From positions 124,001-188,000 of the IMG/VR virus record IMGVR_UViG_3300043418_000114: a stretch of DNA of 64,000 nucleotides; one strand, given 5' to 3'. The DNA comes from a virus. Under the pieces are notes generated by a model. That model searched no databases. It was not told where the DNA came from and saw nothing but the letters and a program-made list of their open reading frames with translations. This document shows positions 5,480 through 47,834 of this stretch, one piece after another. Positions within the stretch are counted from its first letter, which is position 1. The number at the start of each line of letters is the position of its first letter. The position numbers and the translations under genes are program-made.

Positions 5480-8184
5480 GCTACGTTGATGCCATTCATA
5501 GCAGGGATGAGGATCGCATCTACGTGGTAGAGCGTCAGTCAGATGGCCGACGCACCTACAATGAATTCCCTGCTAACTACGTTCTATACTACGACGATCC
5601 TAAAGGAAAGCAACGTAGCATCTTTAACACACCTGTATCTCGATTCAGTACCCGCAAGCGTAAAGAGTTTGAAACTGAAAAGAGAATTCACTCTAACAAG
5701 CAATTGTACGAGAGTGATGTTAACGTTGTGTTCCGTTGCCTAGCCGATAATTATTTAGGTGTTGATGCTCCAAAACTTCACACTTGCTTTTTCGACATTG
5801 AAGTAGACTTTGATCCTATCAAAGGGTTTAGTCCTACTAGTGATCCATTCAACCCTGTGACAGCTATCAGTTGTTATCTAGACTGGATGGACACTTGTTT
5901 CACGTTGGTTATTGCTCCAAAGCATATGACCAAAGAAACAGCAACTGAAATCATTGGTGAATTTGAGAATACAATCTTGTTTGACAACGAGAAGGACATG
6001 TTCGATGTGTTCTTTCAGTTAATCGAAGACGCCGACGTTCTAACAGGCTGGAACTCAGAAGGCTATGATATTCCATACATGGTCAATCGTGTTACACGTG
6101 TTATGTCTAAAGATGATACACGTAAATTCTGTTTGCTTGGACAACTTCCTAAGCCAAGAGAGTATGAACGTTTCGGTAAAGTCGAATTGACGTATGACTT
6201 AGTTGGTCGCATTCACCTAGACTATTTGCAACTCTACAAAAAGTATAACTATGAATCTCGTCATAGCTATAAGCTCGATGCCATCGGTGAGATGGAAGTC
6301 GGCGAGAACAAAACCCAATACGAGGGCACTCTTGATCAGTTATATAACAAAGACTTTAAAAAGTTTATTGAATATAACAGACAAGATACGATGTTGTTGG
6401 TTAAGATCCACAACAAATTGAAGTTCCTTGATCTAGCCAATGCGCTGGCTCATGAGAACACTGTATTGTTACCTACTGTAATGGGCTCCGTTGCCATGAT
6501 TGAAATGGCAATTTTAAACGAAGCTCATGAAAGAGGTTTAGTTGTTCCAGATAAAAAACGAAAGGTAGAAAATGCAGAAGACATTCAATCAGCGGCAGGT
6601 GCCTATGTTGCTACTCCCAAAAGGGGCCTCCACGAATGGGTTGGTGCAGTCGATATCAACTCACTCTACCCGTCAACGATCCGCGCTCTTAACATGGCAC
6701 CAGAGACCATCGTTGCACAAGTCAGACAAACACTTACCGATCAATACATGAGAGAACGCGGTGCCAAACTGGCCCGTGAAAAGAAGTATTACAAAGATGG
6801 TGACGATGACGTTACAGGCGCAATCTTGTGGGAAGGATTGTTTGGTGCTCTAGAGTACACAGCAATCATGAACCAAGAACGTGGTACTATCTTAACTGTA
6901 GACTACGAAGATGGTCGCAGTGTAGAAATGAGTGCCGCCGAGATTTGGAAGATGGTCTTTGATAGCCATAAGCCATGGATGTTAAGTGCAAACGGTACAA
7001 TTTTTACGTATGAGAAAGAGGGTGTAATTCCTGGTCTACTTACACGTTGGTATACTGAACGTAAATCAATTCAGAAACAGGCAAAAGAAGCGTATGGTAC
7101 TGATATGTATGAATACTATGACAAACGCCAGCTTGTTCGTAAGATTTTGCTTAACTCTGCATACGGCGCACTGTTGAATGAACATTGTCGTTTCTATGAT
7201 AAGCGCATTGGTCAATCAGTTACTCTATCTGGTCGTCAGATTGTTAAGCACATGATGAGTACAATCAATGAAACAGTTGAGGGTAAGTATACTCATGAAG
7301 GTGAAGCTATCGTTTATGGCGATACTGACTCATGTTACTTTAGTGCATATGCAACCTTAAAACCACAGATTGATGCGGGTGACTTAGAATGGAACAAAGA
7401 TATTTGTATTGGTCTCTATGACGGCATTGCTGATCAAGCTAACAATACTTTCCCTTCGTTCTTAGAGAAAGCGTTCCATGCTCCTCGCAAGAATGGTGAG
7501 ATCATCAAAGCTGGTCGTGAATTGATTGGTGATCGTAGTATCTTTATCACTAAGAAGCGTTATGCTATCAACATCTTTGACAAAGAAGGCAAGCGTAAAG
7601 ACAAAGACGGAGCATTGGGTGATATCAAAGCCATGGGTCTAGACTTGAAACGTGCAGATACTCCAAAGTATGTGCAAGAATTCTTGATGGATGTACTTGA
7701 AATGGTACTACAACGAGGCAAGGGTAGTGAAGAAGTCATTGAACGAGTGCGAGAATTTAAACGAGTTATGGTATCTCAAGATAGTTGGACAAAGGGTTCA
7801 CCTAAATCCGTTAACAACTTGACCAAGCATACACAAGCGTTTGAAAAGACTGGTACTTGTAAAGTGGGTCACGCACGTGCCGCTATTAACTGGAATTATT
7901 TGCGACGAGTCCATGGAGATAACTACTCTATGCAAATTGTAGACGGCATGAAGATTGTTGTTTGCAAACTCAAGCCAAATGCATTGGGTTTTAACTCAAT
8001 TGCATATCCAGTTGACGAACTCAGACTTCCAGAATGGTTTAAAGAATTGCCATTCGATGATGACGAGATGGAAAAGACACTGGTCGACGAAAAGATTGAT
8101 AACTTGTTAGGTGTTCTGAATTGGGACATTAAGAGTAATATCGACGTTAAATCGACATTCGCCGAATTGTTCTCATTCGGTTAA
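5476..8184 (+). CDS. 43: DNA polymerase, family B (T4 gp43-like)
   Basis: This is the replicative polymerase with proofreading, 902 residues against about 898 in T4. All motifs are visible: exonuclease I FFDIEVDFD (D107, E109), exonuclease II TGWNSEGYDIPYM (D198), exonuclease III YNRQD (D304), polymerase A DINSLYPS (393-400), B KILLNSAYGA (556-565), C YGDTDS (614-619) and a later KKRY. Nothing catalytic is missing and there is no intein. The start is a TTG that overlaps the dsbA stop, so translation is probably coupled. The sliding clamp follows after its own promoter. Confidence 0.97.
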   Translation: MSYVDAIHSRDEDRIYVVERQSDGRRTYNEFPANYVLYYDDPKGKQRSIFNTPVSRFSTRKRKEFETEKRIHSNKQLYESDVNVVFRCLADNYLGVDAPKLHTCFFDIEVDFDPIKGFSPTSDPFNPVTAISCYLDWMDTCFTLVIAPKHMTKETATEIIGEFENTILFDNEKDMFDVFFQLIEDADVLTGWNSEGYDIPYMVNRVTRVMSKDDTRKFCLLGQLPKPREYERFGKVELTYDLVGRIHLDYLQLYKKYNYESRHSYKLDAIGEMEVGENKTQYEGTLDQLYNKDFKKFIEYNRQDTMLLVKIHNKLKFLDLANALAHENTVLLPTVMGSVAMIEMAILNEAHERGLVVPDKKRKVENAEDIQSAAGAYVATPKRGLHEWVGAVDINSLYPSTIRALNMAPETIVAQVRQTLTDQYMRERGAKLAREKKYYKDGDDDVTGAILWEGLFGALEYTAIMNQERGTILTVDYEDGRSVEMSAAEIWKMVFDSHKPWMLSANGTIFTYEKEGVIPGLLTRWYTERKSIQKQAKEAYGTDMYEYYDKRQLVRKILLNSAYGALLNEHCRFYDKRIGQSVTLSGRQIVKHMMSTINETVEGKYTHEGEAIVYGDTDSCYFSAYATLKPQIDAGDLEWNKDICIGLYDGIADQANNTFPSFLEKAFHAPRKNGEIIKAGRELIGDRSIFITKKRYAINIFDKEGKRKDKDGALGDIKAMGLDLKRADTPKYVQEFLMDVLEMVLQRGKGSEEVIERVREFKRVMVSQDSWTKGSPKSVNNLTKHTQAFEKTGTCKVGHARAAINWNYLRRVHGDNYSMQIVDGMKIVVCKLKPNALGFNSIAYPVDELRLPEWFKELPFDDDEMEKTLVDEKIDNLLGVLNWDIKSNIDVKSTFAELFSFG

Positions 8185-8191
8185 ACTAGTG

Positions 8192-8220
8192 TTGACTTTC
8201 TTACTACATTTCAGCATAAT
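8192..8220 (+). promoter_or_regulatory. sigma-70 promoter for the sliding clamp
   Basis: TTGACT, 17 bases, CATAAT. It follows the polymerase stop and lies about 30 bases before the clamp start, which has an AAAGGA ribosome-binding site. Confidence 0.55.
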
Positions 8221-8249
8221 ACATATATTAACTTCCACAAAGGATAAAA

Positions 8250-8981
8250 ATGAAAGATTATTTAAAAGATTTAATTGATCACACATACGGCCTAGGCTGT
8301 ATTGAGTTGATCAAAGTTACAGGCAGTGCCACAGAGACTCAGATTAATGCAATCGCAGAAGACAAGTCTGTTATTGTTAGCGGTGTTTTCAAGACACCAA
8401 TCACTGAGTTTGCCGGTGTATTTGGCATGCCAAACTTGAGCAAGTTGAAGACGATCATTGGTTTCGAAGACTATGATTCTAATGCTGTTATCAACGTTGT
8501 AACTAATAACGCCAGTGGCACAAACGTTCCAACTACGATTCACTTTGAGACTCAAGATAAGTCATTCGTCAACGACTATCGTTTAATGAGCCAAACAATT
8601 GTTGAAGAAAAGATTAAAGCAGTTGTGTTCAAAGGTGCATCCTGGAACGTTGAGTTTGAGCCTACCATCGCTGGTATCCAGCGTTTGAAGAAGCAAGCTA
8701 CTGCCAACAACGAAGAAAAGTATTTCACTACCAAGACAGATGGCAGTGACTTGAAGATTTACTTCGGTGATCCATCTACACACAGTGGTAACTTTGTGTT
8801 TCAACCAGGTGTTAGTGGCACACTAAGCAAGTCTTGGATGTGGCCAGTCAAAGAATTCATTAACATCATGGATCTAGTTGGCGACAAAACTGTTCGTATC
8901 ACAGATGCAGGTGCAACCTCTATCACTGTTGATTCAGGCATTGCAACCTATACATATCTATTGCCAGCACAAGCAAAATGA
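8250..8981 (+). CDS. 45: sliding clamp (T4 gp45-like)
   Basis: The 243-residue protein is close to T4 gp45 (228) in length and has the same arrangement of two beta-alpha-beta clamp repeats. The segment ITEFAGVFGMPNLSKLKTII resembles the interdomain region of gp45, and the C terminus ends in a short hydrophobic strand TYTYLLPAQ. It would form the trimeric ring that tethers gp43 and, in T4, activates late transcription. The position just after the polymerase and DsbA supports the call. Clamp loader genes (44, 62) are not in the window. Confidence 0.75.
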   Translation: MKDYLKDLIDHTYGLGCIELIKVTGSATETQINAIAEDKSVIVSGVFKTPITEFAGVFGMPNLSKLKTIIGFEDYDSNAVINVVTNNASGTNVPTTIHFETQDKSFVNDYRLMSQTIVEEKIKAVVFKGASWNVEFEPTIAGIQRLKKQATANNEEKYFTTKTDGSDLKIYFGDPSTHSGNFVFQPGVSGTLSKSWMWPVKEFINIMDLVGDKTVRITDAGATSITVDSGIATYTYLLPAQAK

Positions 8982-9361
8982 TCGACTACGTTTACGGCGG
9001 CGAGTTCATGACCGTGACTAGCAATAAGGGTTCAACTCCTTATATTAGCCCGTCCTCTCAGCCAATGACTGGAATGTTATCTTACGATAACTCCAGTCAG
9101 TCTATGAAAGTTTATGATGGTAATAGTTGGCAAACAGTTGGTGGTGGTACAGCTATGGTCAATCTGTCACCTGATGCCATCGAAACGCTCAAGTGGGCTA
9201 AAGAAAAGATGCGTCAAGAGCAAGAACTTAAAGCTCTTGCGGCAATCAATCCAACGATCAAGGATCTGGTGGATAGTATGACTGTCAGTGTTCGAGAATA
9301 TGAACATAAAATCGAAATGGTAAAAGCTCTGATTCAAAAAGAAGAAGTCACCGTTTCGTAA
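8978..9361 (+). CDS. unrecognised protein with virion-type beta motif and C-terminal helix
   Basis: The 127-residue protein overlaps the clamp stop (ATGA). Its first half holds MLSYDNSSQSMKVYDGNSWQ, a short beta motif common in phage structural and tail-associated proteins; the second half (about 65-125) is helical and charged and ends EEVTVS. An internal ATG at residue 11 is an alternative start. No function can be assigned. Confidence 0.6.
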   Translation: MIDYVYGGEFMTVTSNKGSTPYISPSSQPMTGMLSYDNSSQSMKVYDGNSWQTVGGGTAMVNLSPDAIETLKWAKEKMRQEQELKALAAINPTIKDLVDSMTVSVREYEHKIEMVKALIQKEEVTVS

Positions 9362-9372
9362 CAAAGAATTCC

Positions 9373-9424
9373 AGAGAGATTGAAATCTCTCTGAGAATAT
9401 CAGATAATAATATCGTTATCTGAT
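9373..9424 (+). terminator. two tandem hairpins after the clamp operon
   Basis: AGAGAGAT-TGAA-ATCTCTCT (9373-9392) is a perfect 8-bp stem, and ATCAGATAA pairs perfectly with TTATCTGAT (9399-9424). Neither is followed by a long T run, so they may be processing or mRNA-protecting structures rather than classical terminators. Confidence 0.45.
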
Positions 9425-9474
9425 TAACATAAACTTTATTAACTACAACCCGCTGTTTAAAAGGAAATATTAAA

Positions 9475-9684
9475 ATGGCAAAATATCAAGTTCAACCCAA
9501 TGCAAAAGTTCGTCAGATTTTCGATGACCTCGAAAAGTATCTAACTTTCTGTCAAGATTTTGGCTACAAGTTCGACGAAGCTGATTTGTACAATCATCGA
9601 AGCTATGTCTTCCGTCAGTACAATAAATTTGCAACTGGTAAGGATGCGAAAGATCAATGGGCGGAGCTAATCGCGCGTTCATGA
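9475..9684 (+). CDS. small conserved-looking phage protein
   Basis: This 69-residue protein is helical and rich in aromatic residues (FDDLEKYLTFCQDFGYKFDE). AAAGGA is placed well before the start. It is coupled to the next gene by ATGA overlap. It looks like the small unknown proteins found in T4-like aquatic phages; no function is evident. Confidence 0.6.
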   Translation: MAKYQVQPNAKVRQIFDDLEKYLTFCQDFGYKFDEADLYNHRSYVFRQYNKFATGKDAKDQWAELIARS

Positions 9685-10442
9685 AAGTAGTTCTAGTCAC
9701 TGGTGGGTTCGACCCAATTCATAGTGGGCACATTGAATATTTCAAAGCCGCTAAACAACTCGGAGATAAATTAATTGTCGGGTTGAACAGTGACGCATGG
9801 TTGACCCGTAAAAAGGGTCAACCTTTTATGCCTTACTATGAACGAATGATGGTAGTTGGCAACCTATCTATGGTTGACGAGACTATCCAATACGACGATA
9901 GCGATGATTCAAGTATCAATGCTATCAAGCGTGTTAAACAAGATTATCCTGATGCTGAAATTATCTTTGCTAACGGCGGAGATAGAACTTCATACAACAT
10001 TCCAGAAATGTCAGTAACTGATGTAGAGTTTGTGTTCGGCGTCGGTGGAGAGAACAAAGCAAATAGTAGTAGCTGGATTCTACGGGAGTGGAAACAACCA
10101 AAGACTTCACGTACTTGGGGTTACTATCGTATTCTACATGATGTACCTGGTTGCAAGGTGAAAGAACTTACTGTAGAGCCTGGTCAAAGTTTGAGTATGC
10201 AACGCCATTTCAAACGTCATGAATTCTGGCATGTTACAGAAGGCAACTGCATCTTAGATATGCAACTGCCAAGTGGTTATGCATTGCCTCCAATGGATTT
10301 ATCGCAACATAGCCAGATACAAATTCCACAAGGTGATTGGCATCGACTAAGTAATCCCTATAGTGTCCCATGCAGAATCGTAGAGATTCAATATGGTGAT
10401 ATGTGTGTGGAAGAAGATATTGAACGTAAGAACAATTCATAA
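9681..10442 (+). CDS. nucleotidyltransferase-cupin fusion (cytidylyltransferase-like plus mannose-6-phosphate isomerase-like)
   Basis: Residues 1-125 are a cytidylyltransferase-like domain with GGFDPIHSGHIEYF (the HxGH signature) as in RfaE/HldE and glycerol-3-phosphate cytidylyltransferases. Residues about 140-250 are a cupin like the type II phosphomannose isomerase domain: SRTWGYYRIL, VEPGQSLSMQRHFKRHEFWHV and a late IVEIQYGD. The fusion suggests a phage enzyme for an activated sugar or polyol. The ATG at 9681 (ATGA overlap) was preferred over an in-frame ATG 24 bases upstream. A second nucleotidyltransferase lies at 11683. Confidence 0.75.
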   Translation: MKVVLVTGGFDPIHSGHIEYFKAAKQLGDKLIVGLNSDAWLTRKKGQPFMPYYERMMVVGNLSMVDETIQYDDSDDSSINAIKRVKQDYPDAEIIFANGGDRTSYNIPEMSVTDVEFVFGVGGENKANSSSWILREWKQPKTSRTWGYYRILHDVPGCKVKELTVEPGQSLSMQRHFKRHEFWHVTEGNCILDMQLPSGYALPPMDLSQHSQIQIPQGDWHRLSNPYSVPCRIVEIQYGDMCVEEDIERKNNS

Positions 10443-11425: not shown

Positions 11426-11702
11426 TTGGATGAAAGAGGCGGCCGACAGGATCATGAATGATCCAGTGAAGCTCAAAGAGTTTATGCGTAGTGTAATAGG
11501 CCCTGAACAAAGAATTATCGAGGGACAAGAGAAAGAACATCTATTCACGATTTTCAATCTACTTGATCCTCTCGAAGAATCCAACAACCAACGTTCTTGG
11601 ACAACTGTATATGAACATGCAGGAAAAACGTACCACTACACTGTAGGTGATGGGTGGGATGAATTAGCAGAGATATTACCAGATGATTTTCAACAGGATT
11701 AA
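11403..11702 (+). CDS. unrecognised small protein
   Basis: About 99 residues. I prefer the GTG at 11403 because AAGGA lies seven bases before it; the frame is open to an ATG at 11376 and there is another ATG at 11430. A helical first half (IMNDPVKLKEFMRSVIGPEQ) is followed by a strand-rich half (YEHAGKTYHYTVGDGWDE). Function unknown. Confidence 0.55.
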   Translation: MTAKTNLDWMKEAADRIMNDPVKLKEFMRSVIGPEQRIIEGQEKEHLFTIFNLLDPLEESNNQRSWTTVYEHAGKTYHYTVGDGWDELAEILPDDFQQD

Positions 11703-12457: not shown

Positions 12458-13636
12458 ATGACAAAAACAGTAGCAGTTATCGGCGCAGGCATAGCTGGTC
12501 TTACAACTGCGTATTACCTTGTTAGAAAAGGTTATCGAGTTACCGTGTATGAGCAAGAGCGATACGCGGCCATGCGTACTAGCTTTGCCAACGGTGGACA
12601 AATGTCTGTTAGCAATAGCGAAGTATGGACAACCTGGAGCAACGTCAAAAAAGGCGTTAAGTGGCTATTCACCAAAGATGCACCTTTGCTCATTCGTCCA
12701 TGCTTTGACTGGAAGCAATGGAAATGGATCGCTAAATTTCTGTACTACACTGCCAAAGGTGACTACAAAGAGAATACAGCATGGACTGTTCGAGCTGGTC
12801 TAGAAGCCAGAGAACTGTACAAAGAAATCATGTTTGAAGAAGGCATTTCGTTTGATTACTTGGGAACAGGTATCGTACACTTCTACAAAGACAAACAGTA
12901 CTGGGACAATGCTCAAACTGTTAAACAGATTTACAACGACAATGGTTGTGAGTGGGATTTACTAACACCGATGCAAGTGAAAGCTCTTGATCCTGCACTA
13001 GAAAATATCGACAACATGATTGGTGGCACATTCACTCCAAGCGATAGTACAGGCGACATTCACAAATTCTGTATGAATCTAGCGTTAGTTCTAGAGAACA
13101 AATACGGCGTTGAATTCAAGTATGAATCAAACATTACTCGCAACTGGGGCATTGAAGCATTAGCTGATGTGTTCGATGCAGTAGTCATTGCCGCTGGTGT
13201 TGGTAGCACTGAATTAGCAGGGCAAATTGGTGACACGCTAGACGTATATCCAGTCAAGGGCTACTCTATCACAATCAACAATGTTGATCCTAAGTATTTG
13301 CCTAAAGTAAGTCTGTTAGACGATCAAGCCAAGATCGTGACAAGTACATTGGGCAATCGATTCCGTGTTGCTGGTACTGCTGAGTTGACTGGAGAGAACT
13401 ACGATATCACTAGAGATAGAGTTGAGCCATTGTTAGAATGGGTTCATACGAACTTTCCTAATATCAATACAAGCGACTACACCCAGTGGGCATGCTTACG
13501 TCCTATGACACCTAACATGATGCCTATCACCAAACAGAGTGACAGGAACAAGAAAGTGTTCTACAATACAGGACATGGTCATCTTGGTTGGACTCTGAGT
13601 CCATACACCTCTAAGACTGTAGCAGATTTAATCTAA
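12458..13636 (+). CDS. D-amino-acid dehydrogenase-like FAD oxidoreductase (DadA family)
   Basis: The 392-residue protein starts with the FAD-binding loop VAVIGAGIAGLTTAYYL (G9, G11, G14) and an acidic strand end (VTVYEQE). It then follows E. coli DadA: SFANGGQMS, the membrane-facing APLLIRP region, YPVKGYSI, LRPMTPN and NTGHGHLGWTLS. DadA oxidises D-amino acids to keto acids and passes electrons to quinone. It stops about 30 residues before the usual C terminus (432 in E. coli) but all catalytic segments are present. The gene has AGGAAG upstream. It is probably a host-derived metabolic gene, perhaps used on D-Ala from peptidoglycan. Confidence 0.85.
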   Translation: MTKTVAVIGAGIAGLTTAYYLVRKGYRVTVYEQERYAAMRTSFANGGQMSVSNSEVWTTWSNVKKGVKWLFTKDAPLLIRPCFDWKQWKWIAKFLYYTAKGDYKENTAWTVRAGLEARELYKEIMFEEGISFDYLGTGIVHFYKDKQYWDNAQTVKQIYNDNGCEWDLLTPMQVKALDPALENIDNMIGGTFTPSDSTGDIHKFCMNLALVLENKYGVEFKYESNITRNWGIEALADVFDAVVIAAGVGSTELAGQIGDTLDVYPVKGYSITINNVDPKYLPKVSLLDDQAKIVTSTLGNRFRVAGTAELTGENYDITRDRVEPLLEWVHTNFPNINTSDYTQWACLRPMTPNMMPITKQSDRNKKVFYNTGHGHLGWTLSPYTSKTVADLI

Positions 13637-41976: not shown

Positions 41977-42977
41977 AATACATTCTAGCGATAGTTGTCT
42001 TACTACTCGCTGGATGTGCCACCACTACCAAGTCTGAATTCATTCGTACTACGGGTGAAGGCAACACGTTCGAGCAAGCCAAACTGGCTGCCTTTCGTGA
42101 AGCTATTCAGACTAAAGTAGGTGCCGTCGTCCTCAGTGAGCGTTTACACAACATTGAAAAAACAGTCCAGGACGATATCACCGTTCATAGCTCTGGCTAT
42201 GTAGATGACTATAAAGTTATCAATACGACAAACATCAGCGGCACATATCGTGTCACCGTAGATGTATTGGTAGCTGAAAGTAAGTTAGCTAATCAAATCC
42301 TAACAACCGCAAAAGCAGAAAAAGATTTTGCAGGTGACCGAGCAACTAATGCCTATTCTACATACATGAATCAAGCAAACGATGCAGACAAAATTGTTGC
42401 ACGAGTGCTTAGTGGATATCCACGACATGCTTTCATCCTTGAACAAGGCCCATATGTGATTGGTGTAGATCAGTATCGATCTGGTAAAATCGTGCTACCA
42501 TTCAAAGTTCGATGGAGTAAAGACTATCTGACCGCAGTGGATGAAATTGTTCATCGATATGAAGACAAGCGTGGCGTTGTTGACAAGATCATGTACAAAC
42601 CAATGAACATTGTTGAATTTCATTCTAAAAATGATAACTACTTCGGCAAGAATTCAAAATATGAGATTGTTGATCAAAGACTGCTAAATACCATTGTCAA
42701 TAGCGTTTATGGCGCAAATGAAATGCGTATTCGTACCGATGTGTATGACGGCAATCACAATTCCATGTATACTACGTGCGTAGTGCCGTGGTGGCGTAAT
42801 TACGGCAAACAATTCTTTTCATCGGACACGTATAACAATATTCTGTTTGATGGCAATCTGGAGCGTAGTGGTGAGTTAACTCTTCCAGTGACTAATGCCA
42901 ATTTACAGATGTACGCTAGAGCCGTGTCTATTGAGTTGTCAATTGTGGCAGTAAAAGATTGTCCACGAGAGCGTTAA
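41973..42977 (+). CDS. lipoprotein with FlgT/LPP20-like N-terminal domain
   Basis: The 334-residue protein has lipobox LLAGC. Residues about 25-105 (EGNTFEQAKLAAFREAIQTK followed by YRVTVDVLV) resemble the N-terminal domain of FlgT and LPP20-like lipoproteins, which sit at the outer membrane. The remaining 220 residues are unassigned. It ends 13 bases before clpX. Confidence 0.6.
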   Translation: MKYILAIVVLLLAGCATTTKSEFIRTTGEGNTFEQAKLAAFREAIQTKVGAVVLSERLHNIEKTVQDDITVHSSGYVDDYKVINTTNISGTYRVTVDVLVAESKLANQILTTAKAEKDFAGDRATNAYSTYMNQANDADKIVARVLSGYPRHAFILEQGPYVIGVDQYRSGKIVLPFKVRWSKDYLTAVDEIVHRYEDKRGVVDKIMYKPMNIVEFHSKNDNYFGKNSKYEIVDQRLLNTIVNSVYGANEMRIRTDVYDGNHNSMYTTCVVPWWRNYGKQFFSSDTYNNILFDGNLERSGELTLPVTNANLQMYARAVSIELSIVAVKDCPRER

Positions 42978-42990
42978 GATAAATTAATAT

Positions 42991-44193
42991 ATGAGTACTG
43001 AAAACAAACTGAACCATTGCTCCTTTTGTGGCAATCATAAAGATGTAGTTAAAAAATTGATCGTTGGCGATGACGTTGCTATCTGTAGCGACTGTATTGA
43101 CCTGTGTACTCAATTAATTGTTGATGACGGCACGGTAGAGGACAATTCTATCAAGACCAATGATCAATATGATCCTGCCTTAATTAAGACTTACTTGGAT
43201 CAACACGTTATTGGCCAAGATAGTGCTAAAATGGTACTATCGGTGGCTATCGCAAATCACTATAAGCGAATCACTCATCCACCTAAAGATTTAGATATCT
43301 CGAAGGGCAACGTTCTTATCGTAGGTCCCACTGGCAGTGGTAAAACATTGCTTGCGAAAACCGTAGCGAAATACCTTAACGTTCCATTTGTAGTGGCTGA
43401 TGCAACTAGCTTAACCGAAGCTGGCTATGTAGGTGATGACGTTGAATCAATGATCAGTATGCTAGTTGCTAATGCAAACGGCGATACTAAACTAGCAGAG
43501 CGCGGAATCGTGTTTGTTGATGAAATCGACAAGATTGCACGTAAGGGTGAGTCTACCAGCTTAACCAGGGACGTTTCAGGCGAAGGTGTACAACAAGCAC
43601 TATTGAAACTAGTCGAAGGTACTGTGTGTCGTGTTCCTGCACAGGGTGGTCGTAAGCACCCAGGTGGAGATATGCTAGAAGTCAACACCAAGAACATCCT
43701 GTTCATTGCTGGTGGCGCATTCGTTGGCTTGAAAGACGTTATCGAGCGTAGAACTAACGGCGGTGGCATTGGATTCGGAGCAACTGTAAAGAAATCCCAA
43801 CAAGAAAGCAATTTAGGTGAAGTCACTCCTGATGACTTGACTAAGTTCGGCATGATTCCTGAGTTTATCGGTCGATTCACTACTACTGTCGCTATTGAGA
43901 CACTAACAAAAGACGAACTTAAGCGTGTTCTTCTTGAGGTCAAAAACAACTATATCGCCCAGTATCAGTATCTGTTCTCCATTGACGGCATTGAGTTGGT
44001 ATTGGAGGATTCAGCACTGGATCAGATCGTAGATAATTGCGTCAAACTCAAGACTGGCGCACGTGGCTTGCACACTGAGATTGAACGTGCCCTAATGCCA
44101 CACATGTTTAACACTGGTAAATATCGTCAAAACAAGATTAAAAAGATAAATATTAATCAGGAGTTAATTTTAAACCCAAAACCAATTGTATGA
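42991..44193 (+). CDS. clpX: ClpX ATPase, protease-unfolding subunit
   Basis: The 400-residue protein is complete: zinc finger C10, C13, C32, C35; Walker A GPTGSGKT (112-119); pore loop GYVG (145-148); Walker B IVFVDEID (173-180); RKH loop (221-223); IGF loop (260-262), which docks on ClpP; sensor 2 GAR (356-358). It should recognise, unfold and thread substrates into ClpP. Presence of IGF suggests it works with ClpP, phage or host. It is slightly shorter than E. coli ClpX (424). The bS21 gene overlaps its stop by four bases. Confidence 0.97.
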   Translation: MSTENKLNHCSFCGNHKDVVKKLIVGDDVAICSDCIDLCTQLIVDDGTVEDNSIKTNDQYDPALIKTYLDQHVIGQDSAKMVLSVAIANHYKRITHPPKDLDISKGNVLIVGPTGSGKTLLAKTVAKYLNVPFVVADATSLTEAGYVGDDVESMISMLVANANGDTKLAERGIVFVDEIDKIARKGESTSLTRDVSGEGVQQALLKLVEGTVCRVPAQGGRKHPGGDMLEVNTKNILFIAGGAFVGLKDVIERRTNGGGIGFGATVKKSQQESNLGEVTPDDLTKFGMIPEFIGRFTTTVAIETLTKDELKRVLLEVKNNYIAQYQYLFSIDGIELVLEDSALDQIVDNCVKLKTGARGLHTEIERALMPHMFNTGKYRQNKIKKININQELILNPKPIV

Positions 44194-44408
44194 GAAAAGG
44201 CAGACGAGTAATTGTTAATGATGGCAACGTTGAAAAGGCGTTGCGTAAATTTAAAAAGAAGATCGCGGATCAGGACCTGCTACAGGAAGTTCGTGATCGT
44301 GGACAGTTTGTTAAACCTACAATTAAGCGTAAGTTAGCTAAGAGCCAGGCTAAACGTAGATGGCAAAAGTACTTGCGTGATCAGAGTTTGCCTAAGAAAC
44401 TCTATTAA
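44190..44408 (+). CDS. rpsU: ribosomal protein bS21
   Basis: The 72-residue protein matches S21: NVEKALRKFKKKIADQDLLQ, then RDRGQFVKPTIKRK and a basic LAKSQAKRRWQKYLRD tail. bS21 binds the 30S subunit near the anti-Shine-Dalgarno end and acts in initiation. Phage-borne bS21 is known from large aquatic phages and is thought to bias the ribosome towards phage mRNA. It is coupled to clpX by ATGA. Confidence 0.9.
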   Translation: MRKGRRVIVNDGNVEKALRKFKKKIADQDLLQEVRDRGQFVKPTIKRKLAKSQAKRRWQKYLRDQSLPKKLY

Positions 44409-44453
44409 ACCAAAATATTAGAATTTTTTGCGTATTTTTAGTTAAATAAATAC

Positions 44454-44484
44454 GACAGTAGATGCCGATGGTCGGGTCTACTAC
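44454..44484 (+). promoter_or_regulatory. hairpin in the hsp20 leader
   Basis: AGTAGA pairs with TCTACT and, inside, CCGA with TCGG, separated by small bulges. It lies about 35 bases before hsp20 and after an AT-rich stretch containing TTAAATAAATA. It could be a leader structure; coordinates are approximate to a base or two. Confidence 0.4.
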
Positions 44485-44517
44485 ATGTCATAACTTGCTT
44501 ATTAAAGGAGAAAACAA

Positions 44518-44955
44518 ATGACAAAAACTTTATCCCTTCGTTCCCTCGACATTCCGTCAATCCACAAATTTGGTATCGGCTTCGATAACATGTTTGATGA
44601 ATTAATGCGAATGAATGCTCAACAATCCCTTAACTATCCTCCATACAACATTCTCAAGAATACCGATGATTCATTCGATATTCAAGTGGCTGTTTCTGGC
44701 TTTAGTGAAGGTGAGATTGAGGTCAATCTTGACAATCGAGTATTGACTATCAAGGGTCAGAAGGCGGAAGATGTAGTTGCTGAATATCTGCATAAAGGTA
44801 TCAGTACACGTGATTTCGTGCGTGAGTTCACTCTAGCCGAACACGTTGAGGTAATCAATGCCTCACAAAAAGATGGTATTTTGACTATTCAACTAGAACG
44901 CATCGTTCCAGAAGAAAAGAAACCGAAAAATATCCAGATATCTTATTCTAAATAA
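44518..44955 (+). CDS. Hsp20 small heat-shock protein
   Basis: The 145-residue protein has the alpha-crystallin domain: [49 protein letters not shown] and [10 protein letters not shown], and ends with [11 protein letters not shown]. Phage Hsp20 is standard in T4-like cyanophages and is thought to hold unfolded proteins during assembly. AAAGGAG precedes the start. It neighbours clpX, bS21 and clpS in a protein-quality cluster. Confidence 0.93.
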
Positions 44956-45623
44956 GAATTGCATTTTTCAAAATGCCATCGTCGCATTCCTGGGGTAGCT
45001 CCAGATTTGCCACAATGCGGACAGGTAATCATGATTGAATTAGGATTAACATTCTTTTGAAAATTATGATTACCTTCTCGAACTAGCTCACGCGCCCGTA
45101 CTGATTCTTGGTTATATGTTCGACCACTTGATCTGATTCCAATACTAATATTTTTTCGATGTTGATCCGTCTTGAATCCTTTATAATTATCTTTGTTGGA
45201 TTTAGGGCCTTGTAATTTTCGGATAAACTCTGGATTTTTAACTTTCGCTTGATTTGCTAATTTAATTTTATTTGCATGATCTACTGATTTTGGACCTCTG
45301 AGTTTTTCTCTCGTTTCCAATGAATGCTTATGGCCAGTAGTTCCCTCTCCACCATCGGTTTGATTTCTTAGTATACCTGTCATGTTGTCCTTGCGACCAT
45401 ACCATCTTATCATGCGTCTTTCCAACGCAAAAGCTCCAATTTCAGATAGTGATTGTTCCATGATGATAATTCTACATTCATCTACTGGCAAATTTATGCA
45501 ATGATTTTTGTGCCATGCCCTACCATTAAATCCCTTTCCGATATAGTACGGCGTACCATCGTCGCGCAAATATGCGTAAACATAGAACCCAATCGGTGGA
45601 TTCTTTTTTGAATAAATAGTCAT
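44943..45623 (-). CDS. GIY-YIG homing endonuclease
   Basis: The 226-residue protein starts with [20 protein letters not shown], the GIY-YIG core in its F-Y-V/Y-Y-I-G form, followed by an Arg (RAWHK) and Glu (ALERRM). Its centre has NUMOD-like repeats ([17 protein letters not shown]), and the C terminus is a zinc finger with [12 protein letters not shown] and FEKC. It lies opposite to all its neighbours, overlaps the hsp20 end by 13 bases and separates hsp20 from clpS, as expected for a free-standing homing endonuclease inserted between conserved genes. Confidence 0.9.
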
Positions 45624-45703
45624 GCTGATTGCTCCTTGAAAGCGTTAGAGTAGTCGGAGAGGTTAGAGACTCGCGGACTACACTTTTATTTATACCAAAC
45701 CAA

Positions 45704-45731
45704 TTGATATTACTTAATTTAGTGATATAAT
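45704..45731 (+). promoter_or_regulatory. sigma-70 promoter for clpS
   Basis: TTGATA, 16 bases, TATAAT. The expected start point, around 45738, coincides with the first base of the hairpin described next. Confidence 0.65.
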
Positions 45732-45737
45732 TAACGA

Positions 45738-45764
45738 GAGTAGTCGAAAGGCTACTCACTTTTT
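45738..45764 (+). promoter_or_regulatory. 5'-terminal GAAA-tetraloop hairpin and T run in the clpS leader
   Basis: GAGTAGTC-GAAA-GGCTACTC forms an 8-bp stem with one G-T pair and a stable tetraloop, followed by ACTTTTT. It would be the first structure in the clpS transcript. It could cap the mRNA against decay or act as an early terminator. Confidence 0.6.
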
Positions 45765-45783
45765 AAATTTAACCGTAAAGATT

Positions 45784-46092
45784 ATGCCTACCAAAACTGA
45801 TACAAAAATTAAAATCAAACCCAACGTTGCTCTACAAGAACCACCGTTGTTTAAGATCATTTATATCAACGATGACGTAACGAGCATGGAGTTTGTTGTG
45901 TCTAGTTTGATTGACTACTTCAATTACACCGAAGATACAGCCGAGAATATCACCATGGATATTCACAATCAAGGTAGTGCAGTTGTCGCTATTTTACCTT
46001 ACGAGATTGCCGAACAAAAAGGCATCGAGGTAACTCTTGACGCACGTAGTCAAGGATATCCACTTCAAGTCAAAGTGGAAGCTGAGGCTTAA
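45784..46092 (+). CDS. clpS: ClpS adaptor of the N-end rule
   Basis: The 102-residue protein keeps the ClpS fold and binding pocket: FKIIYINDDVTSMEFVV (N29, D30, D31, T33, M35) and H61 in MDIHNQGSA. In bacteria ClpS brings proteins with N-terminal Leu, Phe, Trp or Tyr to ClpA-ClpP. A 20-residue flexible N-terminal tail, needed for delivery, is present. No clpA is seen in the window, so it may redirect host ClpAP or work with the phage ClpX. It converges on the next gene, sharing TTAA. Confidence 0.92.
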   Translation: MPTKTDTKIKIKPNVALQEPPLFKIIYINDDVTSMEFVVSSLIDYFNYTEDTAENITMDIHNQGSAVVAILPYEIAEQKGIEVTLDARSQGYPLQVKVEAEA

Positions 46093-46781
46093 ACCTCTAT
46101 TCTTTTTGCCCAATAAGGGCTCTTATCATAACAAGCGTTATTAATGTAGTTGATGCCATTTAAATTGGTGTCAACTACTTTTTTATATGTGCCGTACACC
46201 CAGTGATTGATCTTGTGTTCAGTATCTGCTTCTAATGCTATCTTCAATGGCAGATGACCATTCACGAAACTTGGCGCTTCGCCAAAATATAGCTTTTCAT
46301 CTGGCACACTATTCGATACTACAATAATATTCTTAACATCTAAGTGTTTTTGTAGTCTTTCGATTGTACTCTTGAGGTAAATAATATCCTCATGGCGTAA
46401 TTCTTCGACTTTTAAATCAGTGACCATGTCACTTGGTAACGTGTTGCCGTACCATCCATTTGCTCCTGCAATCGCAATCCCATCGATAATGACGACATGA
46501 TGATGCAGTAGAGCCAAGTTACGTATACTACTACATAGCTTGTGTATTTCTTTGGTTCTAGTATCAACGTCAGCTACACCATCATATTCCAGTGAACCGA
46601 GGGAATAGAACACTCCTTGATAAAACTTACTCAAATGAGATAGGGTTTGATGTATGGTTTTCAAGTCAGGACTAATATTACCAGCGATTATGCAATATAA
46701 ACTAGTCGCCTTGCCTTCCCAATTTAAACTTGCACCTGGTGCAAGATTTAAATCGCTAATTACATCAAACCCAATCTTCAT
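46089..46781 (-). CDS. degenerate metallophosphoesterase, metal ligands lost
   Basis: The 230-residue protein aligns block by block with the intact phosphoesterase at 51054, but the metal-binding residues are replaced: SDLN for SDLH, AGNIS for SGDIM, GSLEYDG for GNHEFYHG, VSNSVPDE for VGHHAPSK and VYGTYKKV for THGHTHDP. The frame is open and full length, so this is not decay. It may bind a ligand or protein without catalysis. It forms a minus-strand pair with the next gene. Confidence 0.6.
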   Translation of the reverse strand: MKIGFDVISDLNLAPGASLNWEGKATSLYCIIAGNISPDLKTIHQTLSHLSKFYQGVFYSLGSLEYDGVADVDTRTKEIHKLCSSIRNLALLHHHVVIIDGIAIAGANGWYGNTLPSDMVTDLKVEELRHEDIIYLKSTIERLQKHLDVKNIIVVSNSVPDEKLYFGEAPSFVNGHLPLKIALEADTEHKINHWVYGTYKKVVDTNLNGINYINNACYDKSPYWAKRIEV

Positions 46782-47110
46782 TATTTTGCTACGCGAATTT
46801 TAGCTTTTTTGACTACGGCTTTAGTAGCCTTAGCTTTAGCTGGTTGCTTCGCCGAAGCGGGTTGCTTCTTTGTAGCTTGCTTCTCAGCAGGGGCTTTCTT
46901 GGCACGTGCTTTCTTTGGGGCGGCAACTGGTACCTCAACTGCAGGTGCAGGTTGAACTACTGGTTTTACTTCCTCAACGACAGGTGTTTCTACCTTGTAC
47001 GCGGCTACCGGTGCCTCAACAACAGACTCAACTTCTTGTTTACGTTTGCTGATGAAATACACTAGTGCACCGATGACTACGATGCCAATTGCAATGTCTA
47101 ATGGACTCAT
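46781..47110 (-). CDS. membrane-anchored protein with Lys/Ala/Pro-rich tail
   Basis: The 109-residue protein has one N-terminal membrane segment (LDIAIGIVVIGALVYFI), a Val/Glu/Pro linker and a C-terminal 55 residues of KKARAKKAPAEKQATKKQ type, resembling histone H1 tails. It could tether DNA or acidic surfaces to the membrane. AGGAGATA precedes the start. It is translated ahead of the degenerate phosphoesterase. Confidence 0.6.
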   Translation of the reverse strand: MSPLDIAIGIVVIGALVYFISKRKQEVESVVEAPVAAYKVETPVVEEVKPVVQPAPAVEVPVAAPKKARAKKAPAEKQATKKQPASAKQPAKAKATKAVVKKAKIRVAK

Positions 47111-47183
47111 TTTTATCTCCTAAACATATATTTACTATTGGACATTTACTACTAATTTTTTGTCTAAAAGTAAACCAAAAGAT

Positions 47184-47213
47184 TTGATATGTGATAGTTG
47201 ATTTTTATATACT
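47184..47213 (+). promoter_or_regulatory. sigma-70 promoter candidate for clpP
   Basis: TTGATA, 18 bases, TATACT, followed by a 25-base leader with AAGGAG before clpP. The divergent gap (47111-47243) holds nothing else obvious. Confidence 0.45.
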
Positions 47214-47243
47214 ACATATCTCAATTAATTATTAAGGAGTATT

Positions 47244-47834
47244 ATGAGTCTAGTCCCTATCGTCATCGAACAAACATCTAAGGGTGAACGTAGTTATGAC
47301 ATTTACAGCCGTCTACTGAAAGATCGTGTTATTTTGCTTGAAGGTGAAGTCCATGATCAAATGGCAAACCTTATCGTTGCTCAACTACTCTTTTTAGAAA
47401 GCGAAGACCCTGGCAAAGATATCAACATGTATATCAACTCTCCAGGTGGCAGTGTCACCGCTGGCATGGCAATCTATGACACCATGCAATTCATTAAGCC
47501 AGATATCCATACTATCGTGATGGGTCAAGCGTGTTCGATGGGTTCATTGCTAGCACAAGCTGGAAGCCCTGGCAAGCGTTTCATGTTGCCTAATGCTCGT
47601 CATATGATTCACCAACCATCCGGTGGTGCTCGTGGCATGCAATCGGATATCGAAATCTCCTACAAAGAAATCACTTACTTGAAAAAGCGTTTGACTGAAA
47701 TCTACGTCAAACACAACTCCGCTGGTAAGACATACGAAGAATTCGAACGTGACATGGATCGTGATAAGTTCATGAGCGCAGACGAAGCATTAGCTTATGG
47801 TCTAATCGATCAAGTGTTGGAGAAACGTCCTTGA
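47244..47834 (+). CDS. clpP: ClpP protease
   Basis: The 196-residue protein has the full catalytic triad: S98 ([11 protein letters not shown]), H123 ([10 protein letters not shown]) and an Asp near 170 (ERDMDRDKF). The oligomerisation motif [11 protein letters not shown] is intact. There is no long propeptide; the N terminus [20 protein letters not shown] matches mature ClpP. It should form the tetradecameric chamber driven by the phage or host ClpX. It lies about 3 kb downstream of clpX in its own unit. Confidence 0.97.

Follow-up and report, generated by a model that had tools for sequence, protein, structure and literature searches.

The stretch of DNA analysed here (the window, 64,000 nucleotides) comprises bases 124001-188000 of the 364,247-base virus record IMGVR_UViG_3300043418_000114 of IMG/VR, and it carries on its plus strand a block of five genes encoding the Clp proteins ClpX, ClpS and ClpP together with ribosomal protein bS21 and the small heat-shock protein Hsp20. 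The block runs from clpX (42991-44193, 400 amino acids) through rpsU, the bS21 gene (44190-44408), hsp20 (44518-44955, 145 amino acids) and clpS (45784-46092, 102 amino acids) to clpP (47244-47834, 196 amino acids). An earlier note made from the sequence alone had described this layout, and the open reading frames (ORFs) and Pfam matches bear it out, including the ATGA overlap between clpX and rpsU. Two further features, an RNA element in the untranslated leader of hsp20 (44446-44520) and three minus-strand ORFs inside the block, were absent from that account. The locus probably belongs to a heat-shock-like proteostasis set inherited within a lineage of T4-related jumbo phages. The set would comprise ClpX, ClpS, ClpP and Hsp20 in the block and DnaJ and ClpA 57 kb upstream of clpX, with Hsp20 controlled by a ROSE-type RNA thermometer.

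Clp proteins of the block and a ClpA beyond the window

All five genes are intact, and their Pfam domains (the zinc finger, AAA and C-terminal domains of ClpX, Ribosomal_S21, HSP20, ClpS and CLP_protease) score well above the curated cut-offs; bS21 is recognized by its Ribosomal_S21 domain (PF01165, 52 bits against a cut-off of 27), and Hsp20 matches PF00011 and PHROG 432. ClpX, ClpP and ClpS each align co-linearly and over their full length with solved structures of the E. coli type. The zinc finger, Walker A/B motifs and IGF docking loop previously noticed in ClpX are present, as are all four zinc cysteines, a GYVG pore loop, the RKH loop, an arginine finger and sensor 2. Among 83 ClpX sequences (82 from relatives plus that of the window), no variation is seen in the zinc cysteines, Walker A/B, the pore tyrosine, the arginine finger or sensor 2, and the docking loop reads I/M-G-F. 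The clpX gene has no Shine-Dalgarno sequence; immediately 5' of its start stands AGATAAATTAATA (42973-42990), seemingly conserved among the relatives viewed.

ClpP has no propeptide and begins at the mature N-terminus, and its triad S98-H123-D174 is invariant in 68 sequences. The serine and histidine are those named before, while the aspartate, formerly looked for near position 170, is placed by alignment at D174, the equivalent of E. coli D171 in mature numbering. In the hydrophobic cleft the equivalents of Y62, I90, M92 and L114 are kept, that of Y60 is mostly S, and F112 varies. Both halves of a ClpXP protease are present in these features, namely an AAA+ motor with zinc domain and IGF loop, and a peptidase with triad and hydrophobic cleft. 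ClpS of the window has M35 in addition to the pocket residues N29, D30, D31 and H61 seen earlier; across 77 ClpS sequences N29, D30, H61 and E74 are invariant and the D31 position is D, E or N, and of the ClpA-binding residues E74 occurs in 77/77 and K79 in 70/77, with R in the other seven. This conservation argues in general for retained Clp function, short of proof of activity.

The observation that no clpA gene is present holds for the window and fails for the genome. Genes outside the window were searched family by family in the 364-kb record, and a gene for a 754-amino-acid ClpA was found 16 kb before the window, about 57 kb upstream of clpX, overlapping the end of dnaJ (dnaJ at 6970-7779 and clpA at 7776-10040 of locus L003). 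The protein has the N-domain (PF02861) and both AAA modules, and its best structure matches are to E. coli ClpA (598 bits, residues 5-727). An IGF loop and the equivalent of N-domain residue E28 are each kept in 8/8 ClpA sequences. The idea that the phage has no ClpA was rejected, since clpA occurs in the same record and in 9/9 large related records. The parts of a ClpAP-ClpS system are present accordingly as a double-AAA ClpA with N-domain and IGL/IGF loop and a ClpS with N-degron pocket. No Hsp70 was found in the window phage, and no FtsH (M41) protease in the seven records of the lineage that were searched.

To judge from these residues, phage ClpX and phage ClpA would both use their IGF loops to dock on phage ClpP, ClpS would hand N-degron substrates to phage ClpA, and Hsp20 would hold unfolding proteins. 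A self-contained proteolysis set, as the earlier note proposed, is better supported than it claimed, because the phage also has ClpA and DnaJ. ClpS has a phage partner because the phage encodes ClpA, and the suggested link from host ClpA to phage ClpP is unnecessary for the same reason; so is the suggestion that ClpS acts with ClpX. The latter, which the shared gene block might favour and the sequence does not forbid, we consider very improbable, as ClpS keeps its ClpA-binding residues, ClpA keeps the E28 equivalent and a phage ClpA exists. A broader alternative is that the phage Clp proteins function chiefly in pairs with host proteins, phage ClpS joining host ClpA and the phage ATPases joining host ClpP, or that they assist virion assembly instead of carrying out proteolysis. 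A 2021 review of phage ClpA, ClpX, ClpP and ClpS proposes that phage ClpS targets host ClpAP and that phage ClpA and ClpX act in assembly (PMC7824862), and PHROGs places phage ClpP-like proteins under head maturation. However, the lineage keeps the whole set, ClpA is always present, there is one ClpP per genome (except for two in one suspect 524-kb record), and the docking and catalytic residues are all retained, so that we regard this alternative as rather doubtful and favour partnerships among the phage's own proteins. The exceptional record (G002, 524,565 bases, locus L068) carries clpA, clpP and rpsU twice, once on each strand, and probably represents two phage genomes joined during assembly.

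We fetched 80 clpX loci of IMG/VR relatives, 64 of them distinct, and counted gene order on contigs of sufficient length. The order clpX-(rpsU)-hsp20-clpS-clpP is kept in 33/33 distinct viral loci, which excludes a chance arrangement. Downstream of clpX, hsp20 is found in 58/60 relatives, clpS in 47/47, clpP in 33/33 and rpsU in 49/60, with the ATGA overlap kept in 52 of the 53 relatives carrying rpsU. A "translation takeover" by bS21, as formerly envisaged, could occur, but the block does not require bS21, which is absent in 11/60 relatives. Trees show jumbo-phage ClpP as one supported group, and both ClpP and ClpX as separate from those of Bacillus phage G, which is consistent with old vertical inheritance.

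A near-identity DNA search with the Clp block found no match across phage records. The impression that no known phage combined all the parts in such an order did not survive a search of phage genomes: Pseudomonas phage vB_PaeM_PA5oct has the order, the 2018 publication on Agrobacterium phage Atu_ph07 includes ClpX, ClpA, ClpP, ClpS and DnaJ (PMC6102473), and a 2022 tabulation placed bS21 within ten genes of Hsp20 in 127/900 cases and of Clp proteases in 50 and 47 (PMC9723584). A unique cassette was rejected, as PA5oct, Atu_ph07, Sinorhizobium phage Phosso, Salicola phage SCTP-2 and dozens of IMG/VR contigs share the set and mostly keep its order, and the Clp block is a further member of a known jumbo-phage repertoire, not a new one. 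Two records named Acinetobacter phage MD-2021a and Listeria phage LM 4-11-1 contain bacterial-looking clp/dnaK gene sets and are likely to be host contamination within the phage collection.

A ROSE-like leader on hsp20

Upstream regions were compared across about 80 relatives. The hsp20 leader contains ATAAATA (44446-44452), a late-promoter-like motif with a putative promoter function, and TAAATA occurs in 73/78 hsp20 leaders as against 9% of shuffles. There follows a ROSE-like element (44456-44523) of two hairpins. Hairpin I occupies 44458-44481. Beyond it, UGUCAU (44486-44491) is complementary to the AUGACA with which hsp20 begins (44518-44523). In 74/80 leaders, compared with 10% of shuffles, the start codon and the region 5' of the U(U/C)GCU motif can form a helix of 5 bp or more. 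CUUGCUU (44494-44500) contains that motif, the anti-Shine-Dalgarno signature of ROSE elements, which is present in 80/81 distinct leaders; its UUGCU faces the hsp20 Shine-Dalgarno sequence AGGAG (44506-44510), in a helix (helix 3) that is paired in 96% of alignment cells.

The best Rfam match at this leader is RF02523 (ROSE_3), which covers the full model (1-69 of 69) at 27.8 bits (E 0.011) and ends within the start codon. ROSE_3 is also the top match in 9/9 relative loci, with 24.5-35.3 bits and in each case at the start of hsp20. No Rfam match was obtained at the gathering cut-off, which for ROSE_3 is 43 bits, so that the assignment rests on sub-threshold scores together with independent tests, and we call the element ROSE-like rather than a certified family member. 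Calibration on bacterial genomes is informative here, in that ROSE_3 matches of 69.8 bits (Pseudomonas) and 31.1 bits (Novosphingobium) precede hsp20 and those of 23.3 bits or less do not. The U(U/C)GCU hallmark and the short, two-hairpin Pseudomonas form of ROSE have been defined (PMC3669281); the phage element likewise lies directly 5' of a small heat-shock gene, has U(U/C)GCU imperfectly paired with the Shine-Dalgarno sequence in its 3' hairpin, and has a covarying hairpin upstream.

Covariation was assessed in a plain MAFFT alignment of 39 diverse hsp20 leaders, with 500 shuffles and a slid pairing as controls. Both bases vary in 8 of the 10 hairpin I pairs, giving 52 cells with a change on either side of the pair, against 15 in shuffles (0/500 as high) and at most 18 when the pairing was slid. 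RNAalifold, unaided, recovers hairpin I and not hairpin II; UGUCAU is nearly invariant and hence shows little covariation.

A covariance model built from the hsp20 leaders of this phage lineage (R1) scores 83.6 bits on the window leader, its sole match in the 364-kb genome. In whole genomes of this phage, Phosso, PA5oct and Atu_ph07, the hsp20 leader is the sole match at E ≤0.1, with only E 0.035 for Atu_ph07; Rfam reported no ROSE for Atu_ph07 or PA5oct, whose leaders were picked out by both R1 and the motif, which in PA5oct reads UUGCG. R1 also finds the leaders of the Methylophilales phage Melnitz-3 and of most sampled cyanophages. It gave no match in 0.66 Mb of bacterial control DNA or in 14 bacterial genomes, and is therefore too lineage-specific to date a transfer. 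When IMG/VR was searched by RNA pattern alone, regardless of genes, at least 120 stretches were retrieved, and in 75 of the 80 examined an Hsp20 ORF lies directly downstream, most of the others being explained by start-codon choice or a truncated ORF. The U(U/C)GCU motif is present in 13/14 sampled isolate leaders, mostly of cyanophages; in Prochlorococcus phage P-HM2 it is absent at the annotated hsp20 start. DNA similar to the leader of S-B64 occurs in 333 phage records. In addition, seven relatives have a second ROSE-like leader, after ATAAATA-type DNA, 5' of an intact dnaK encoding a full-length DnaK of about 630 amino acids (L034 11466-13425, with its leader at 11466-11538, L046 3755-5700, and between rpsU and hsp20 in L023, L036, L039, L062 and L085).

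These features, and the analogy with the short ROSE elements of Pseudomonas, suggest how the element may act. The hsp20 mRNA would start near the ATAAATA site, which also suggests the timing of its transcription, and would open with the thermometer, hairpin I serving as a constant stem and hairpin II as the sensor. At low temperature UUGCU, imperfectly paired with AGGAG, would mask the Shine-Dalgarno sequence and UGUCAU the start codon; warming would open hairpin II and allow more Hsp20 synthesis without new transcription.

Several points weigh against an inherited set with a working thermometer. The source record is metagenomic, and ClpP gives a weak hint of its host, with best bacterial identities of 65-68%, mostly to Burkholderiales. 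All phage ROSE_3 scores fall under the gathering score, covariation is limited to hairpin I with the sensing part, hairpin II, almost invariant, and ViennaRNA predicts little opening on heating, the AUG being unpaired at 11% at 15 °C and 21% at 45 °C. Sensing by ROSE elements depends on non-canonical pairs, which nearest-neighbour models do not score.

The weak melting in silico would also fit a relic, a ROSE leader that arrived together with a bacterial hsp20 and is kept only as a 5' stabiliser or weak translation brake, sensing no temperature in the phage. Cyanophage small heat-shock proteins group with bacterial class A proteins (PMC3827213), so a joint acquisition of gene and leader is possible. 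Yet UUGCU opposite the Shine-Dalgarno sequence persists in jumbo phages and cyanophages that infect different hosts, while hairpin I drifts with compensation, and the copy 5' of dnaK suggests that the element is used and not merely inherited. We consider a relic unlikely, and prefer the reading in which the hsp20 leader senses temperature as part of an inherited proteostasis set.

In the literature reviewed, ROSE is described for bacterial small heat-shock genes only. Full-text searches for phage ROSE elements or RNA thermometers, with subscription literature outside their scope, returned no report, and two papers on cyanophage small heat-shock proteins do not mention a thermometer or untranslated region. 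The phage-borne leader looks like an element of a type so far reported only from bacteria. We lean, with some reserve, towards a phage heat-shock regulon under RNA-thermometer control, in which ROSE-type elements would gate Hsp20 in jumbo phages and cyanophages and DnaK in some relatives, raising chaperones within one infection on warming and independently of the host heat-shock sigma factor. The leader matters more than the Clp set, which adds a member to a known repertoire and corrects the idea of a ClpS without a phage partner. Should the element be functional, phages of a large marine and freshwater group would sense temperature directly in their mRNA, which bears on phage replication in warming water, and its presence on dnaK would add a gene to the known targets of this class of thermometer.

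Promoters, inserted genes and other features of the window

Candidate sigma70-like promoters precede clpS (45704-45731, plus strand; TTGATA-16-TATAAT, 11/12 matches) and clpP (47184-47213, plus strand, conserved in relatives), and promoters of this type with at least 10/12 matches occur in 74% of relatives for clpS and 77% for clpP, compared with 4% of shuffles. Directly 3' of the clpS promoter lies a hairpin (45738-45757, plus strand), with a stem of at least 7 bp in 68/72 leaders versus 13% of shuffles and 39 different 5' arms. In most relatives it stands about 7 nucleotides past the -10 box (region 45704-45765), its arms variable yet paired and sometimes followed by a T-run; it could be an hsp20 terminator, a 5' stabiliser or an attenuator.

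One of the minus-strand ORFs inside the Clp block, between hsp20 and clpS (44943-45623), is homing-endonuclease-like (PHROG 314, 15526 and 10829), and has no match at the same place in any relative examined; it is apparently a recent insertion, seen only in this phage. Its start is GIY-YIG-like by eye, and the motif GAGTAGTCG stands both 5' of it and 5' of clpS. Another, between clpS and clpP (46089-46781), is conserved in all long relatives and metallophosphoesterase-like by eye, with no Pfam or PHROG match. Elsewhere the window contains a phage-borne TctC-type tricarboxylate-binding receptor (894-2045, PF03401), of a family that is expanded in Burkholderiales, and a phage-borne FAD-dependent oxidoreductase of the DAO family (12458-13636). 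No tRNA or transfer-messenger RNA was found in the window.

Comparison with known phages and thermosensors

The closest parallel to the gene set is PA5oct and its relatives (Wroclawvirus), which have the same one-strand order, clpX-rpsU-(2 ORFs)-hsp20-clpS-...-clpP-...-dnaJ-clpA, with a clpX-rpsU overlap of 14 nucleotides, and a ROSE-like hsp20 leader (R1 30.6 bits). Their proteins are, however, only about 30-52% identical to those of this phage, and their clpS is separated from clpP by FtsH and other genes, whereas no FtsH peptidase was found in the record studied here. Atu_ph07, a Rak2-like phage, and Phosso share ClpX, ClpA, ClpS, ClpP and Hsp20 in the circular order clpX...hsp20-tk-clpS...clpP, and in Atu_ph07 dnaJ and clpA are adjacent as well; they differ in having IF-3 after clpX and thymidine kinase (tk) between hsp20 and clpS, and Atu_ph07 also in encoding ClpB. 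In SCTP-2, clpX, bS21 and clpS adjoin. Between its clpX and clpS, an ORF annotated as hypothetical (L264 2648-2908) reads as bS21.

Among thermosensors, the leader most resembles the short ROSE element of Pseudomonas ibpA (PMC3669281; RF02523), with which it shares two hairpins, a length of about 65 nucleotides, U(U/C)GCU opposite the Shine-Dalgarno sequence in hairpin II and a position in the leader of a small heat-shock gene. Unlike that element, it is phage-borne, follows a late-promoter-like motif in place of sigma32, has an additional helix over the start codon, scores under the Rfam cut-off and occurs also 5' of phage dnaK. The cIII thermosensor of phage lambda (PMC4166951) is likewise a phage mRNA structure that depends on temperature, but its sign is opposite, as heat lowers translation, and its structure and gene are unrelated.

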